The translations under genes and the position numbers were made by a program. The notes under the pieces are model-generated. The model searched no databases. It was given only the letters and a program-made list of their open reading frames with translations, and had not been told where the DNA came from. Below, piece by piece: positions 1 through 6,750 of a stretch of 6,750 nucleotides of DNA. The DNA is from DAOVGU01 sp030637775 [NCBI: bacterium] (GTDB taxonomy: Bacteria > Ratteibacteria > UBA8468): assembly GCA_030637775.1 (NCBI GenBank), contig DAOWFY010000069.1, positions 1 through 6,750 of the forward strand, in the 5' to 3' direction. The stretch's first letter is position 1, and every line of letters starts with the position of its first letter.

Positions 1-506
1 AAGTCTTTGAATTGACGAAGATGTTTAAAAATGCTAATATGATTCTTTTAATAAATTTTTCATCCCTTTCCGTTCCTCAAGTTACAAATTTGCGTCAAAG
101 GGTAAGGAAGGCAAAAGGAAGTTGTAAAGTAGCAAAAAAAAGCCTTGCTTCATTAGCCTTGAAAGAGACCTCTTTGGAGGATCTTTTACCCTATTTAGAA
201 AATTTAACCGGGGTGACAGGATTTGTTCTTGGCGATGAGGCAAATAGTCAGAGACTGGCGGAGGTTCTGACAAACTTTGGTAAAGAATTTGAATCCTTTG
301 GGGTAAAGGCAGGATACTTCAGTAATAGACTTCTTTCCCCGGAAGAGACTCGGTTATTGGCAAGATTACCTTCTCGAGATACTATTTTAGCAGAATTAAT
401 TGGTAGTTTAAATCTTTCTTTAGCAGGGTTTCTAAATCTTCTTGTCGCACCTCTTCGCGATTTTATTAATCTGCTGAATAACATAGGAAAAAAGGAAGAA
501 AAATAA
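1..506 (+). CDS. rplJ: 50S ribosomal protein L10, 5'-truncated by the window edge
   Basis: L10 is the base of the ribosomal stalk: its N-terminal domain binds the GTPase-centre 23S rRNA next to L11, and its C-terminal helix carries L7/L12 dimers. The frame is already open at the first complete codon (position 3) and reads VFELTKMFKNAN, which matches the interior of the first L10 helix. The TTG at 12 and ATG at 21 are therefore not convincing starts; the true start should lie about 15-20 codons upstream. Recognisable parts are the strand and loop ILLINFSSLSVPQ (near 40-80), the RNA-binding stretch VTNLRQRVRKAKG, and LPSRD (366-380), which leads into the C-terminal helix (about 381-503). That helix has the same length as I recall for Thermotoga L10, which binds three L12 dimers. 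The stop is TAA at 504-506. The family call is confident, supported by the rplL-rpoB neighbours. Autogenous control by L10 at an mRNA leader is typical of this operon, but that region is outside the window. Confidence 0.93.
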   Translation, partial: VFELTKMFKNANMILLINFSSLSVPQVTNLRQRVRKAKGSCKVAKKSLASLALKETSLEDLLPYLENLTGVTGFVLGDEANSQRLAEVLTNFGKEFESFGVKAGYFSNRLLSPEETRLLARLPSRDTILAELIGSLNLSLAGFLNLLVAPLRDFINLLNNIGKKEEK

Positions 507-508
507 AA

Positions 509-523
509 TGACACAAAGTGTCA
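509..523. repeat. Small perfect inverted repeat after the rplJ stop
   Basis: TGACAC-AAA-GTGTCA is a perfect 6-bp inverted repeat with a 3-nt loop, starting 3 nt after the rplJ stop codon. Its right arm (518-523) overlaps the left end of the larger palindrome at 519-591, so the two RNA hairpins would be mutually exclusive. No T-run follows, so it is not a canonical intrinsic terminator. It may be a chance by-product of the larger element's insertion point. Confidence 0.4.
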
Positions 524-591
524 CCCTGAGCCCATGGCGAAGGGTCTCATACTACGGATGAGATTCTTCGGTCTATGACCTCAGAATGACA
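519..591. repeat. Imperfect 73-bp palindrome, probable interspersed REP/MITE-like element
   Basis: The outer arms TGTCACCCTGAG (519-530) and CTCAGAATGACA (580-591) pair at 10 of 12 positions. The inner arms CGAAGGGTCTCAT (538-550) and ATGAGATTCTTCG (558-570) pair at 11 of 13 by Watson-Crick, with two further G-U pairs in RNA. The arms enclose a 7-nt loop (551-557), and a poorly paired bulge (531-537 against 571-579) separates the two stem segments. From memory, both arms resemble the TGTCATTCTGAGCGAAGCGAA type of palindromic repeat scattered through intergenic regions of many unrelated bacteria; I could not verify this by search. Transcribed, it would form a long hairpin between rplJ and rplL that could act as an RNA-processing or stability element. 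No U-tract follows it, which argues against an intrinsic terminator. Confidence 0.72.
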
Positions 592-603
592 TCTGCGTCC
601 AAA

Positions 604-611
604 AGAAGGAG
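604..611 (+). promoter_or_regulatory. Strong Shine-Dalgarno of rplL
   Basis: The purine run AGAAGGAG contains AAGGAG (606-611), 8 nt before the ATG at 620 and 11 nt before the second in-frame ATG at 623. This spacing supports 620 as the start. A strong site is expected because L7/L12 is made in several copies per ribosome, unlike its operon neighbour L10. Confidence 0.8.
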
Positions 612-619
612 ACAAAAAA

Positions 620-1069
620 ATGATGGCAGAAAAGAAAGCAGTGAAATCTGTAAAGAAGGAGAAAGCTACGCCGAAGAAGGAAGAAAAATTAGTTTCTAAA
701 GAGGATTTTGTTGCCGCAATTGAGAAAATGAATATTTTGGAGTTATCGGAATTGACGAAAACTTTAGAGGAGAAATTTGGCGTAAAAGCCTCTGTTCCGG
801 TTGCGCCGGTAGCCCAGACAACTCCTGGTAGAGAGGCCTCTCCCGAGGAAGAGGAAAAAACCTCTTTTGATGTAATTTTGGCTGAAGTAGGAGAGAAGAA
901 AATTCCGGTAATCAAGGAGATAAGAACCATTACTAACTTGGGTCTGAAGGAATCGAAGGATTTTGTGGAGTCTGCTCCCAAACCTATTAAGGAGAAGATA
1001 GAGAAGAAAGAGGCGGAGGAGATTAAGAAAAAATTGGAGGCGGTTGGCGCTAAAGTAGAGATAAAGTGA
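620..1069 (+). CDS. rplL: 50S ribosomal protein L7/L12 with a Lys-rich N-terminal extension
   Basis: L7/L12 is the multicopy flexible stalk protein that recruits and stimulates EF-Tu, EF-G, IF2 and release factors. The product has 149 residues, against roughly 120-130 usual for the family. Residues 1-25 form a Lys/Glu/Ala-rich extension with 9 Lys and no counterpart in E. coli L7/L12. The dimerisation and L10-binding domain spans about 26-56 (from [13 protein letters not shown] to EEKFGV). A flexible Pro/Ala then acidic hinge spans about 57-82. The GTPase-factor-binding domain is 83-149, with FDVIL, VIKEIR and the hallmark [10 protein letters not shown] (108-117), ending in AKVEIK. ATG 620 is chosen for its ribosome binding site; ATG 623 would remove only one residue. 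Since the extension follows a good ribosome binding site, it is probably real, although initiation further in cannot be excluded. The TGA stop (1067-1069) shares one base with the ATG of the polymerase gene. Confidence 0.96.
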
Positions 1070-1074
1070 TGATG
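1066..1074 (+). promoter_or_regulatory. Stop/start overlap and tandem start codons linking rplL to rpoB-rpoC
   Basis: The sequence GTGATGATG holds three consecutive in-frame possible starts (GTG 1066, ATG 1069, ATG 1072). The rplL TGA stop (1067-1069) overlaps ATG 1069 by one base. No convincing Shine-Dalgarno sits just upstream; the nearest GGAGG (1036-1040) is 28 nt from ATG 1069. The arrangement suggests termination-reinitiation coupling from rplL. An in-frame TAA at 1051-1053 limits how far upstream the start could lie. Confidence 0.7.
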
Positions 1075-4000
1075 AGCGGAAATAGAAAAAAATTTTTGTC
1101 AGAGGAGATTCCTAATCTCTTAGAGATGCAACTTACCTCATATGAAAATTTTCTCCAGAAAGATGCGGAGACCACCCGGAGAGAAAACAGGGGTTTAGAA
1201 TATGCTTTTCGGAAGTTCTTCCCTATCTCCAGAAATGATGACCTTGTTACTTTACAATATTTAGGTTATTCTCTGGAGCCTTCTTACTCTAATCAATTTG
1301 AATGTCAGCGTAATGGGACCACTTATGCTTATAATCTTAAGGTGAAATTTCGTCTCATTATCAAGGAAAAAGTAAAGGGCAAGAGCACCTCAAGTACTGA
1401 TGAGATTAAAGAAATAAAGGAGCAGGAGGTTTATCTTGGCGCTCTTCCCATTATGACCGACCGGGGAACTTTTATCATCAATGGGGTAGAAAGAGTAGTT
1501 GTTCAACAGCTGCAAAGATCTCCGGGAGTTTACTTTAAGGAAGAATTGACTGAGGGTGCACAGAGACTATATTCGGCCAAAATTATCCCCCTCCGGGGAA
1601 TGACTCTTGAATTTAGTTTTCATAACAATCTCTGGTATGCCTCTTTATTAGGCAGGAACAAAATTAAAATCTTTGTTACCACTCTCCTCCGCGCTTTAGG
1701 ATATAAGACAGATCGTGAGATTGTAGAGGTTATTTGCCCGAAACCGAAAAGACCAGAAGAAGTTATTATCAATACCTTACACAGAGATTATCTAAGGAGT
1801 TCTGAGGAGGCGATTTTGAAAATCTATAGCCTGCTACAACCTGGTTATCCGAAGGTTCTTAAGATTGCGATCGCTTTCTTTCAACAGCTCTTCTTTGGTA
1901 AATATGGTTACGATCTTTCCTTGGCCGGAAGGAAGCAATTGAATAGGAAATTGGGTTTAAATTTAGAAGAGAGAACCTTGACAAAAGCCGATATTATTGA
2001 GACATTAAGATATTTACTTGGTCTCCAGAGGGGAGAAGGAAATGTTGATGATATTGACCATTTGGGAAATAAGCGGGTAAGAACAGTGGGAGAGTTAGTG
2101 GAGGTCCAGGTAGAGATTGGATTGGCAAGATTGGCAAGATTTATTAGAGAGAGAACAACCCTTCAAGAACCAAAAACATTGTCCGTTCTGGATCTCGTGA
2201 ATTCTCGCGCTTTTTCGGCCGCGATCAATGACTTCTTCAATCGGAATCAACTTTCTCAATTTCTCGATCAGACAAACCCCCTTTCCGAACTGACCCATAA
2301 GAGAAGACTCTCCGCTATTGGGGAAGGAGGAATCATTGAGAGGAAGAGGGTAGGGTTTGAGGTTAGGGATGTCCATTACACCCACTACGGAAGGATCTGT
2401 CCCATTGAGACACCGGAAGGGGGCAATATTGGGCTGATCACCTCCTTCTCTGTTTATGCCAAAATAGATAAATTGGGTTTTTTAAGGACCCCTTACCGTA
2501 AAGTAATAAAAGGAAGAGTAACCGACAAAATAGAATATCTCTCAGCCGATGAAGAAGATGAATACATCATTGCTCAGGCAAATTCCCTGCTGGATAAAAA
2601 GGGAAGATTTTTGGAGAAAGAGGTCTCAACAAGATCTAAAGGAGCATTTCTGATGACGGAGCCTTCCTTGATCAATTATATGGATATTTCCCCCAAGCAG
2701 ATCTTAAGTCCGACTGCCTCCCTCATTTCATTCTTAGAACATGATGATGCTAATCGAGCACTTATGGGTTCTAATATGCAGAGGCAGAGCGTACCCTTAA
2801 TCAGACCAGAATCCCCATTAGTAAAGACGGGGATGGAGAAGATTATCGTAAGGGATTCGGGAGCAGTACTGCGGGCAGAGAGTAGCGGAGAGGTTGTGGA
2901 GGTAGATAGTGAAAGAATTGTAATTAAGAAGGTGCCCTCTGACTCTCTCCAATTAAAGGACAAAGTGGTTCAACATTTTAGGAAATTTGTGCGATTAAAC
3001 CAGGATACCTGTTTTCACCAATCTCCCATTGTGGATAAAGGAGAAAGGATAAAGAAAGGTCAAATTATTAGTGACGGTCCGGCGATCTCGCAAGGGGAAC
3101 TTGCTTTGGGGAGAAATGTGTTTGTTGCCTTTATGCCTTGGTATGGTTATAATTTTGAAGATGCCATTTTAATTAGCGAAAAATTAGTAAAGGAAGATAT
3201 CTATACATCCATTCACATTAAGGAATTTAAAGTAGAGGCAAGAGAGACGCCACTGGGTGTGGAAGAGATTGCCCGGGATATTCCGAATCTTTCTGAAGAA
3301 GCGCTTAAGAATTTAGATGAAGAAGGAATTATCCGCATTGGAGCGGAAGTAAAGCCAAATGATATTCTTGTGGGGAAAGTTTCTCCCAAGAGTGAGACAG
3401 AACTTTCTTCTGAGGAGAGACTTCTTCGGGTAATCTTTGGGGAAAAAGCAAAAGATGTAGCCAATACCTCTCTTTATGTCCCTCCTGGTATTTCAGGAAT
3501 TGTGATCAATGTGAGAAAGTTTTCTCGCTCCTTAGAGGAGAAGAGCAAGAAGGAAAAAGAAGCAGAGAGAAAAGAAATTCTTAAGGTTCAAAGGACCTTC
3601 AAAAGAAGAAAAGAAGAAATTCTTAAATCAGGGGCAGATAAGATTAAACTCTTGCTTCCTGCTCTTCAAAAGAGTAAAATTCTTCCCTTGCTCTCGGTCC
3701 TTAAAAGCCGTAATCTAAAGAGAAGGGAAAAGTTTGAAAGTAGTGTCCTGGATCTTATTAAAAAGGAAAAACTGCGGGAGAGGATTAAAAAGCTTTTAGA
3801 GTTAATCGTGACAGAGATAAATAAGATTGATTCTCAAGAGAACAGGTTGATTGATCGGATCAAAAAGGGTGATGCCCTCCCTTCTGATGTTATAAAAAGA
3901 ATTGTCGTAGAGGTAGCAATTAAAAAGCCGATTGCGGTCGGGGATAAGGTATCCGGCCGCCATGGCAATAAAGGTGTGATTGCTCGGATTCTTCCCGAAG

Positions 4001-4611
4001 AGGATATGCCTTATCTTGCTGATGGGACACCGGTGGAGATCGTCTTAAATCCTTTAGGTGTTCCCTCCCGGATGAATCTTGGTCAGATCTTAGAGACACA
4101 TTTGGGATGGGTGGCAAAGACCTTGGGGATCTCGGTTGAAAGTCCTGTTTTTGAAAGCCTTTCTGAGGAGAGTATAAAAAATCTTCTTAAAAAGGCTCAT
4201 CTTCCTGAAGACGGAAAAGTTGTTCTCTGTGATGGTCGGACGGGTGAACCTTTTCTTCAGAAGGTTACCGTAGGCCATATCTATATGATGAAGCTATTCC
4301 ACCTCGCAGATGAGAAGGTTCATGCCCGTAGTGTGGGCTCCTATTCTTTAGTAACCCAGCAACCTTTAGGGGGAAGAGCACAATTTGGTGGCCAGAGGTT
4401 CGGGGAGATGGAGGTGTGGGCCTTAGAAGGTTATGGTGCTGCTTATACCCTCCAGGAAATTCTGACCGTAAAGAGCGATGATACTGTTGGCAGAAGAAAA
4501 ATTTATGAATCGATTGTTAAAGGAAAAAGTTTCTCCGAACATAGAATTCCCGAATCATTTAATGTTTTAATGAAGGAATTAAGGGGCTTGGGATTGAATG
4601 TCAGGATAGAA
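1069..4611 (+). other. rpoB: RNA polymerase beta moiety of the fusion
   Basis: Beta forms one side of the active-site cleft and contacts template, RNA and NTPs. Landmarks in order: protrusion motifs VYLGALPIMTDRGTFIINGVERVVVQQL (about 1432-1512); a compact lobe; DDIDHLGNKRVRTVGEL; and the rifampicin region with LSQFLDQTNPLSELTHKRRL (from 2251), where E. coli Q513, D516, H526 and S531 are matched by Q397, D400, H410 and S415. Then come THYGRICPIETPEG, LEHDDANRALMGSNMQRQ, GYNFED (3145-3162, E697 and D698), and GDKVSGRHGNKG (from 3940, with Lys 960 and 968 matching E. coli K1065 and K1073). The C-terminal clamp part holds PLGVPSRMNLGQILETHLG, SYSLVTQQPLGG and FGEMEVWALE. At about 1180 residues it is nearer Bacillus (about 1190) than E. 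coli (1342). The large lobe insertions of either group are missing. A charged helical insertion of about 120 residues (3517-3885) occupies the beta-i9/SI2 position. Confidence 0.95.
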
Positions 4612-6750
4612 AAGGATAAAGAAGGCCGGAGAGAGATTTCCCTGTGCATCGCCTCTCCCTCAACCATTCGTTCCTGGTCATCGGGTGAGGTGAAGAAAGC
4701 AGAAACAATTAATTACCGGACATTTAAACCGGAGAAGGATGGCCTTTTCTGTGAAAAGATCTTCGGCCCCGTGAAGGATTGGGAATGTGCCTGTGGAAAG
4801 TATAAGAAGATTAAATATAAGGGCATTGTCTGCGATCGTTGTGGAGTAGAAATTACTACATCTGATGTTCGCCGGGAGAGGATGGCACATCTTGAACTTG
4901 CTGCCCCGGTTAGCTATATCTGGTTATTTAAAAGTACCGCTAACTGGATGGGGCTTCTCTTAGAAATGACACAGAGCAGACTAGAGATGATTCTCTATTA
5001 TGAACGCTATGTGGTGATTAAACCTGGAGAAAGTGCCTATCAAAAGAAGGAGTTACTTACCGAAGAGGAGTATCAAAGAGCCATCGCTAATTGCAAAGGA
5101 TTCAAGGCTGGTATTGGGGCAGAAGCCATCAGGGAGCTCTTAAAGGAGATTGATTTAAAAAGAACCGAGAGTAGTCTTTTGCGAAAGATAAAATCTACCA
5201 AATATAAGAGTAAAAGGAAAAACCTTATTAAAAATTTAAGAGTTACCCAAGGTTTACAAAAGAGTGGAGTGAAACCGGAATGGATGATTGCCAACGTTGT
5301 TCCCATTTTACCTCCGGATCTCAGGCCTCTTTTACCCTTGGAGGGGGGGAGGTTTGCTACCAGCGATCTCAATGATCTCTATCAGAGAGTAATTAACCGT
5401 AATAATCGCTTAAAAAGATTATTAAAGTTAAGAGCTCCCGACATCATTATTCGTAATGAAAAACGCATGCTTCAGGAAGCGGTGGATAACCTTTTGGATA
5501 ATGGTCGGCATGGTAATCCTGTACTTGGCCGGGGAAATCGACCCCTTAAGTCGATTTCAGATTTCCTTAAGGGTAAGCAGGGCAGATTCCGGCAGAATCT
5601 CTTAGGTAAGAGGGTTGACTATTCAGGAAGGGCGGTTATTGTCGTTGGACCTGAATTAAAAATTAATGAATGTGGATTACCCAAGTATATGGCTCTTGAA
5701 CTTTTTGCTCCTTTTATCTTAAGAGAGTTAAGGAAAAGAGAGTATATTCATACCATAAGTTCTGCAAAAAAAGCCCTGGAGAAAAATGAGCCAGAGGTTT
5801 GGGAGATATTAGAGGAGGTAATAAAGAACCACCTTGTTCTTCTGAATAGGCAACCAACACTCCATCGCTTATCCATTCAGGCTTTTCAACCGAGGTTGAT
5901 CGAAGAGAATGTGATTAAACTGCACCCCCTTGTATGTTCTGCCTTCAATGCCGACTTTGATGGGGATCAGATGGCAGTCCATGTTCCTCTTTCTCCGGAA
6001 GCGGAGATGGAGGCCAACCTTCTGATGAGTGCCGCGACGCACGTTCTCGCTCCAGCCAATGGGAAGCCTATTGTTACTCCAACTCAGGATATTGTAATTG
6101 GATGCTATTATTTAACCAGCATTGAGCCAAAGGAACCAGACCTTGAGATTTACAGCAATTCCAATGAAGTCCTGGCCGCTTACTACTCTGGTAGACTCTC
6201 CCTCCATACTAAAATTAAGGTTCAGATCGAAAATGAGATTAAGGAGACCACGGTAGGCAGGATCCTCTTTAATGAGATTTTACCGGTCGGCTTGGATTTT
6301 AAGAATCTTCTCATTAATAAAGAGATTTTAGGAAAATTGATTAGTGAGATCTTCTCTAAGTTTGGCTATCAGGAAACAATAAAATTTTTGGATGAGGTAA
6401 AGGAACTGGGATTTAAATTTGCTACTCTCGGTGGAATTTCCATCTCAATAGATGATCTGATAATTCCTGAGAAAAAGAAGGATTTAGTGGAAAAAGCGAA
6501 GGTTCAAACAAGCCGCTTTGAAAAGGATAACCGGAAAGGGATAATTACCGATGGAGAAAGGTATAATAAAGTGATTGATATTTGGGCCTCTTCCACCAGT
6601 GAGATTGCTAAGGAGGTTTTTCTTGCTCTGGACAAGAGCCAGGGGGATGGATACTTCAATCCGATCTTTATTATGGTGGATTCCGGTGCTCGTGGGACAC
6701 AGACTCAGGTAAATCAATTAACCGGAATAAGAGGTTTAATGACCAGACCT
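1069..6750 (+). CDS. rpoB-rpoC fusion: Fused DNA-directed RNA polymerase beta-beta' polypeptide, 3' end beyond window
   Basis: This single frame of 1894 codons has no stop before the window edge. It encodes the whole beta subunit and about the first half to two-thirds of beta', the two large subunits forming the catalytic core of bacterial RNA polymerase. Beta covers about residues 1-1180 and beta' starts at about 1190. The join (4597-4659) reads GLNVRIEKD, then KEGRREISLC, then IASPSTIRSWS. That is the usual beta C-terminus and the usual beta' start separated by only a few residues. No in-frame ATG or GTG lies between 4573 and 4689; only TTG codons at 4588 and 4594 could act as weak internal starts. 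Active-site elements of both subunits are present, so the product should be active. The gene overlaps rplL by one base and lacks its own clear ribosome binding site. Natural beta-beta' fusions are established in Helicobacter and Wolbachia. I start it at 1069; GTG 1066 or ATG 1072 would shift the N-terminus by one residue. Confidence 0.93.
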   Translation, partial: MMSGNRKKFLSEEIPNLLEMQLTSYENFLQKDAETTRRENRGLEYAFRKFFPISRNDDLVTLQYLGYSLEPSYSNQFECQRNGTTYAYNLKVKFRLIIKEKVKGKSTSSTDEIKEIKEQEVYLGALPIMTDRGTFIINGVERVVVQQLQRSPGVYFKEELTEGAQRLYSAKIIPLRGMTLEFSFHNNLWYASLLGRNKIKIFVTTLLRALGYKTDREIVEVICPKPKRPEEVIINTLHRDYLRSSEEAILKIYSLLQPGYPKVLKIAIAFFQQLFFGKYGYDLSLAGRKQLNRKLGLNLEERTLTKADIIETLRYLLGLQRGEGNVDDIDHLGNKRVRTVGELVEVQVEIGLARLARFIRERTTLQEPKTLSVLDLVNSRAFSAAINDFFNRNQLSQFLDQTNPLSELTHKRRLSAIGEGGIIERKRVGFEVRDVHYTHYGRICPIETPEGGNIGLITSFSVYAKIDKLGFLRTPYRKVIKGRVTDKIEYLSADEEDEYIIAQANSLLDKKGRFLEKEVSTRSKGAFLMTEPSLINYMDISPKQILSPTASLISFLEHDDANRALMGSNMQRQSVPLIRPESPLVKTGMEKIIVRDSGAVLRAESSGEVVEVDSERIVIKKVPSDSLQLKDKVVQHFRKFVRLNQDTCFHQSPIVDKGERIKKGQIISDGPAISQGELALGRNVFVAFMPWYGYNFEDAILISEKLVKEDIYTSIHIKEFKVEARETPLGVEEIARDIPNLSEEALKNLDEEGIIRIGAEVKPNDILVGKVSPKSETELSSEERLLRVIFGEKAKDVANTSLYVPPGISGIVINVRKFSRSLEEKSKKEKEAERKEILKVQRTFKRRKEEILKSGADKIKLLLPALQKSKILPLLSVLKSRNLKRREKFESSVLDLIKKEKLRERIKKLLELIVTEINKIDSQENRLIDRIKKGDALPSDVIKRIVVEVAIKKPIAVGDKVSGRHGNKGVIARILPEEDMPYLADGTPVEIVLNPLGVPSRMNLGQILETHLGWVAKTLGISVESPVFESLSEESIKNLLKKAHLPEDGKVVLCDGRTGEPFLQKVTVGHIYMMKLFHLADEKVHARSVGSYSLVTQQPLGGRAQFGGQRFGEMEVWALEGYGAAYTLQEILTVKSDDTVGRRKIYESIVKGKSFSEHRIPESFNVLMKELRGLGLNVRIEKDKEGRREISLCIASPSTIRSWSSGEVKKAETINYRTFKPEKDGLFCEKIFGPVKDWECACGKYKKIKYKGIVCDRCGVEITTSDVRRERMAHLELAAPVSYIWLFKSTANWMGLLLEMTQSRLEMILYYERYVVIKPGESAYQKKELLTEEEYQRAIANCKGFKAGIGAEAIRELLKEIDLKRTESSLLRKIKSTKYKSKRKNLIKNLRVTQGLQKSGVKPEWMIANVVPILPPDLRPLLPLEGGRFATSDLNDLYQRVINRNNRLKRLLKLRAPDIIIRNEKRMLQEAVDNLLDNGRHGNPVLGRGNRPLKSISDFLKGKQGRFRQNLLGKRVDYSGRAVIVVGPELKINECGLPKYMALELFAPFILRELRKREYIHTISSAKKALEKNEPEVWEILEEVIKNHLVLLNRQPTLHRLSIQAFQPRLIEENVIKLHPLVCSAFNADFDGDQMAVHVPLSPEAEMEANLLMSAATHVLAPANGKPIVTPTQDIVIGCYYLTSIEPKEPDLEIYSNSNEVLAAYYSGRLSLHTKIKVQIENEIKETTVGRILFNEILPVGLDFKNLLINKEILGKLISEIFSKFGYQETIKFLDEVKELGFKFATLGGISISIDDLIIPEKKKDLVEKAKVQTSRFEKDNRKGIITDGERYNKVIDIWASSTSEIAKEVFLALDKSQGDGYFNPIFIMVDSGARGTQTQVNQLTGIRGLMTRP
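4612..6750 (+). other. rpoC: RNA polymerase beta' moiety of the fusion, truncated at window edge
   Basis: Beta' carries the catalytic Mg2+ site. Landmarks in order: IASPSTIRSWSSGEVKKAET; NYRTFKPEKDGLF; the first zinc site with Cys 1240, 1242, 1255 and 1258 (codons at 4786, 4792, 4831, 4840); and the sigma-binding clamp helices (about 5350-5500, GGRFATSDLNDLYQRVINR and RNEKRMLQEAVDNLLDNG). Then come GKQGRFRQNLLGKRVDYSGR (5572-5631), NRQPTLHR (5845-5868), and the catalytic NADFDGDQ (5947-5970) with Asp 1629, 1631 and 1633. Next are PEKKKDL, then GERYNKVIDIW, which in E. coli contributes to the second ppGpp site shared with DksA. The window ends in SGARGTQTQVNQL...RGLMTRP, before the bridge helix, trigger loop and second zinc site, so an SI3-type insertion cannot be judged. 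Lengths between motifs match E. coli closely. Unusual substitutions occur at KSTANWMG (4930-4953), NRQPTLH and QVNQL. Confidence 0.95.

Follow-up and report, generated by a model that had tools for sequence, protein, structure and literature searches.

The 6750-base window analysed here is the entire contig C22 (DAOWFY010000069.1) of a draft bacterial genome assigned to the phylum Ratteibacteria (1,397,272 bases in 177 contigs, 83.5% complete). Most of it is occupied by a gene, rpoBC, in which the beta and beta' subunits of RNA polymerase are encoded as one continuous frame. We confirmed that this beta–beta' fusion is real. Far from being an oddity of one lineage, it runs through the whole phylum, and its distribution is most simply read as one fusion event on the stem. 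Very probably, then, rpoBC is a natural and ancestral rpoB–rpoC fusion of one phylum, translated as a single beta–beta' chain that works in an otherwise ordinary RNA polymerase.

The open reading frame that begins with GTG at 1066 stays open to base 6750, a total of 1895 codons, and its ATG at 1069 overlaps the TGA stop codon of the preceding gene, rplL (1067–1069). Within this one frame, Pfam places Rpb2 domains 1, 2, 3, 45, 6 and 7 (residues 17–1183), followed by Rpb1 domains 1–4 (residues 1190–1895). The NCBIfam models agree with this assignment. The beta part scores 1569.3 bits with TIGR02013 (cut-off 801.15) and 1507.3 bits with NF001616 (cut-off 896), and the beta' part reaches 1061.6 bits with TIGR02386 (cut-off 963.5) with only about half of beta' on the contig; the complete protein of a genome from the same family (G003) scores 1651.8 bits with the latter model. 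The parts of the gene are as follows, with residues counted from position 1066.

1069–6750, forward strand: fused beta–beta' gene rpoBC, open at the contig end (open reading frame, Pfam and NCBIfam matches; same arrangement in relatives).
1069–4614, forward strand: beta part, to about residue K1183 (TIGR02013 to residue 1181 and NF001616 to residue 1182, both above cut-off; PF04560 to residue 1183).
4594–4650, forward strand: junction, consisting of the last beta strand L1177–K1183, the turn D1184–R1188 (4615–4629) and the first beta' strand R1189–I1195 (alignment of 20 sequences; hairpin predicted by AlphaFold2).
4630–6750, forward strand: beta' part, N-terminal half only (TIGR02386 over residues 1191–1894, above cut-off; PF04997, PF00623, PF04983 and PF05000).
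5947–5967, forward strand: NADFDGD motif of beta' (read in the sequence).

The initial annotation had described a complete beta followed directly by beta' in one stop-free frame, both with intact catalytic motifs. The single frame and the complete beta stand, but beta' is cut about half way by the end of the contig. Likewise, NADFDGD, which we take to be the catalytic-loop motif of beta', is present, but the contig stops short of the more distal region of beta' that holds the trigger loop.

The extent of the fusion was assessed in 35 genomes of the phylum, all of them drafts with an estimated completeness of 54–96%. Searched with a 273-residue query spanning the junction, 31 of them gave a match; the loci were fetched and their frames read in the sequence. 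In all 30 genomes with a contig covering the junction, the window genome included, beta and beta' share one stop-free frame, and these fused junctions span all five families and 13 of the 14 genera of the phylum. Five genomes were not judged: in one (G026) the contig ends inside beta', and in the other four (G027, G031, G033 and G034, 54–82% complete) neither half of the junction query found a match. Each of the 31 matched draft genomes yielded one junction match, and none of them showed a further junction region of rpoB or rpoC. Taken as one frame without a stop and present as the sole copy, a natural rpoB–rpoC fusion is thus found at all 30 readable junctions of these drafts. The gene is complete, with both frame ends on the retrieved stretch, in 23 cases and measures 2504–2657 codons from stop to stop. 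In a genome of the same genus as the window (G001) the fused frame runs to a stop codon, and in G003 and G012, where the protein is complete, the ordinary domain set is found, including Rpb1 domain 5.

Only junctions read in the sequence were counted, because the open-frame length given by the genome search reads through in-frame stops between adjacent genes. Two loci that seemed fused by that length, G039 (2818) and G044 (2868), proved separate once the junction was read. Separate rpoB and rpoC genes can look fused by open-frame length in G164 as well.

The window itself, a 6.75 kb contig of an incomplete and fragmented draft, invites the suspicion that two neighboring genes were run together by an assembly or sequencing error. 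The relatives refute this. The same fused frame is present in 29 other genomes, in four of them on contigs of 60–298 kb (G014, G022, G012 and G030), and because it recurs in every genome of the phylum that covers the junction, chance or assembly error can be excluded. Moreover, as detailed below, separate genes have a longer junction, and the fused one is under coding constraint. We therefore give such an error virtually no chance. The findings that would have spoken against the initial annotation were looked for within the phylum and did not appear: there was no indel or stop at the junction in the 30 assemblies and, among the readable junctions, no relative with separate genes.

To compare junctions, we counted the codons between a conserved block near the C-terminus of beta and another near the N-terminus of beta'. 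Within the phylum this distance is 45–49 codons and varies by whole codons. The public comparison comprised the best 80 loci of a longer list, one of which (L032) belongs to the host phylum, leaving 79. By the frame test, 75 of these are separate, and their blocks lie 58–122 codon-lengths of DNA apart; the other four are fused, three from Helicobacter (63–65 codons) and one from Bryobacterales (95 codons). Given that the gap in the phylum is shorter than in separate pairs, a turn only a few residues long takes the place of the tail of beta and the start of beta'. This turn lies around 4615–4629, with no separate linker, and in the alignment of 20 sequences the central part of the junction varies and carries charged residues. 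Differences between 206 pairs of equal length fall on codon positions 1, 2 and 3 in the ratio 2215/1714/5568 across the whole gap and 1025/879/1946 in its core. Such a bias toward the third position through the junction looks as expected of translated sequence.

An open frame could still give rise to two subunits, either through an internal translation start or through a protease cut at the junction. In-frame start codons do occur inside the junction of most genomes (for example, ATG 4570 in the window), and a charged, variable middle is what a cleavable turn could look like. However, no start position is common to all 30 junctions, and that of G017 contains no in-frame ATG, GTG or TTG at all. 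Shine-Dalgarno-like matches in the junctions are at most 6 bases long and are not conserved. Besides, an internal start would leave the full-length product being made. On balance, we regard production of two subunits as quite unlikely and infer that the cell contains one intact polypeptide.

We next consider whether the fusion could be related to those already known. Trees were computed for beta, for beta' and for both jointly by quick searches under a simple model, with 39–41 rows, some of unlike letter composition. From the phylum they contained 13 of the 30 fused rows, a selection made to represent all five families, together with two Helicobacter rows, one row from Bryobacterales (L100) and two Alphaproteobacteria other than Wolbachia, which is absent from the trees; two long rows (L101 and L108) were removed after the first tree. 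The 13 rows from the phylum form one clade with a Shimodaira–Hasegawa-like approximate likelihood ratio test (SH-aLRT) support of 100 in all three trees, and the two Alphaproteobacteria fall outside it, also with a support of 100. In each tree, the state changes between separate and fused three times: in the host phylum, in Helicobacter and in Bryobacterales. The approximately unbiased (AU) test rejects a clade of the phylum with Helicobacter at p=0.0002 (for two Helicobacter rows and a quick tree), with L100 at p=1e-86, and with both at p=1e-47. Elusimicrobiota (L078) is sister to the phylum in the joint and beta' trees (support 93 and 94), a position left unresolved by the beta tree. The junction query matches 98 of 119 Elusimicrobiota genomes, and among the matches listed each covers only part of the query. 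All 20 Elusimicrobiota junctions that were read, chosen for their long open frames, have a stop between the subunits and are therefore separate.

A fused gene acquired from Helicobacter (or Wolbachia), or sharing a common origin with the fusion there, would account for the same order of subunits and the same kind of join. It would also fit the observation that both NCBIfam models of beta/beta' fusions, NF007172 and NF011417, match the proteins of the phylum and are in fact their top two matches. Yet these matches fall far below the cut-offs. NF007172 was taken as the Helicobacter model because the Helicobacter anseris protein (L084) passes it with 5990.8 bits; against its cut-off of 5372 bits, the phylum proteins G003 and G012 score 2569.3 and 2505.4 bits, and L100 from Bryobacterales 2822.4 bits. 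NF011417, presumably the Wolbachia fusion model, has a cut-off of 4632 bits, and G003 and G012 reach 2522 and 2430.4 bits in a comparison that has no Wolbachia protein as a control. In addition, the Helicobacter junction is longer, the phylum stands apart in the beta tree and in the beta' tree alike, and the AU test speaks against common descent with the Helicobacter fusion. Transfer or common origin is therefore highly improbable. As far as sequence comparison goes, the trees show that the fusion of this phylum arose separately from those of Helicobacter and Bryobacterales. The independent event proposed in the initial annotation is thus supported, and its placement inside the known fused group of Helicobacter is rejected. 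The long tail of L7/L12, the compact beta lobe and the divergent beta' motifs, which had been cited in its favor, do not carry this conclusion, and the extra segment of L7/L12 is at the N-terminus.

The junction was also modeled with AlphaFold2, first over 488 residues with an alignment of 20 rows and then over 221 residues with 78 rows, many of which are pieces of beta or of beta' from unfused genes. In the second model, L1177–K1183 and R1189–I1195 (model strands 88–94 and 100–106) form a hairpin around the turn D1184–R1188, with predicted local distance difference test (pLDDT) values of 69, 79 and 75 in three ten-residue blocks at the junction. The same two strands are present in the first model. 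A Foldseek search produced 737 matches, and the 50 listed are RNA polymerase entries aligned over 109–164 columns. We take the C-terminal strand of beta and the N-terminal strand of beta' to be neighbors in known RNA polymerases. The models thus suggest a hairpin at the junction, in which a short turn would tie these two strands together and convert a contact between chains into one within a chain.

The usual partners of beta and beta' are encoded as well. Alpha is present as a separate gene in 32 of the 35 genomes. For omega, PF01192 finds 13 of the 35 genomes, 8 of them above the cut-off (control 14/14), and a phylum-specific profile made from five omega sequences recovers 30, the window genome included, with the best E-value per genome ranging from 1e-34 to 2e-4. 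Loss of omega alongside the fusion, which had been considered, is accordingly rejected for these 30 genomes, while the divergence of omega remains. In eight other loci inspected by eye, the fused gene is preceded by rplK, rplA, rplJ and rplL and followed by rpsL and rpsG, with fusA in seven of them. Taken together, the ordinary domain set, the presence of alpha and omega and the usual neighbors lead us to expect a core of the usual alpha2-beta-beta'-omega composition in which beta and beta' make up a single chain.

Some details of these partner genes were noted by eye. In the loci read, omega (for example, in L152, L153, L166 and L210) directly follows an rplQ-like gene, and in several loci it precedes a gene resembling a pilT-type ATPase. 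The alpha of G004 (L209, family f2) has no C-terminal domain recognizable by eye, no profile search having been made, and ends in a Lys-rich tail. The alphas of two genomes of family f1 (L207 and L208) are short and seem to have kept this domain.

Based on these observations, we propose that the gene is translated as one beta–beta' polypeptide of about 2,500–2,650 residues, which would fold as any bacterial RNA polymerase does and join two alpha subunits and omega. Turning the strand pair into a beta-hairpin would come at little structural cost. The tether would fix beta and beta' at 1:1 and remove one step of assembly, an effect that we infer from the arrangement of the gene. A stronger version of this idea is that the fusion changed assembly itself: beta and beta' fold as a unit through the hairpin, the omega-aided step lost weight, and omega and, in at least one genome, the C-terminal domain of alpha drifted along. 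We consider this version rather unlikely.

Several points weigh against a single-chain enzyme as the product of this gene. The evidence for the fused enzyme comes from genes and models, and proteolytic splitting after translation may be compatible with the data. The genomes are drafts throughout, four of them without a match and one with a contig ending inside beta', and the trees come from quick searches with a simple model. The structural models are weak overall: mean pLDDT is 61.8 and the predicted template modeling score (pTM) 0.47 for the second, and the first is weaker still, with a mean pLDDT of 47.2. Even with these points taken into account, translation of an ancestral fusion into one beta–beta' chain remains, in our judgment, very probable.

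Upstream of rpoBC, the window contains the following features.

3–506, forward strand: rplJ, ribosomal protein L10, with the 5' end cut by the contig start (PF00466, E=8e-16; NF000955 above cut-off).
507–619, forward strand: intergenic stretch with a dispersed repeat-like element (inverted repeat 538–550 / 558–570).
620–1069, forward strand: rplL, ribosomal protein L7/L12 with a Lys-rich N-terminal extension (PF00542 and PF16320; TIGR00855 covers residues 25–149).

The intergenic segment 505–605 has 12 matches in its own genome, the window copy included, and represents a dispersed repeat between rplJ and rplL. The Lys-rich extension of L7/L12 (about 25 residues, 620–700 in the window) was also noticed by eye in G003, of the same family, and was not seen by eye in the seven loci of other families that were looked at.

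In most bacteria, beta and beta' are separate, as they are at the great majority of the public loci compared here. A fusion that is fixed across a phylum, has almost no linker and has its own origin shows that a lineage can diversify without keeping them apart. As a comparison group supplied by nature, the phylum lets one ask what purpose separate subunits serve, be it stoichiometry, the order of assembly or the role of omega. The fusion also gives this phylum, represented here by draft genomes only, an unambiguous shared character. On the practical side, annotation pipelines that expect two proteins may misname the fused gene.

No published report of the fusion in this phylum was found in the literature searched, which had most subscription journals outside its reach. 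Fused rpoB–rpoC genes as such are known: passages of one source describe them in Helicobacter and Wolinella (PMC9696931), and passages of another in Helicobacteraceae and Wolbachia (PMC7483510). In Nitrospina, rpoB and rpoC are given as separate genes (PMC3578206), and a chloroplast rpoB case is a split, not a fusion (PMC1931444). We confirmed the Helicobacter fusion in H. anseris and H. muridarum (L095); for H. bizzozeronii (L102), the confirmation covers just the junction. It resembles that of the phylum in having one frame with beta first and beta' second, but it belongs to a separate clade and has the longer junction, whereas the fusion described here is found throughout a phylum. The Wolbachia fusion has the same order and is of the same kind (PMC7483510), but the phylum proteins lie far below the NF011417 cut-off, a comparison made without a Wolbachia sequence. 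In Bryobacterales (Acidobacteriota), six of nine junctions, picked and not random, are fused in frame (L100, JAPPMC010000163.1, and L155–L159) and three are separate (L160–L162). Here, too, beta comes first, but 95 codons separate the two conserved blocks, and L100 falls in a separate clade. Artificially tethered E. coli beta–beta' is reported to be functional; if so, a tether is compatible with function, although in that case the linker is engineered. The fusion is of a known kind, set apart by its own origin, its shorter join and its fixation through a phylum.

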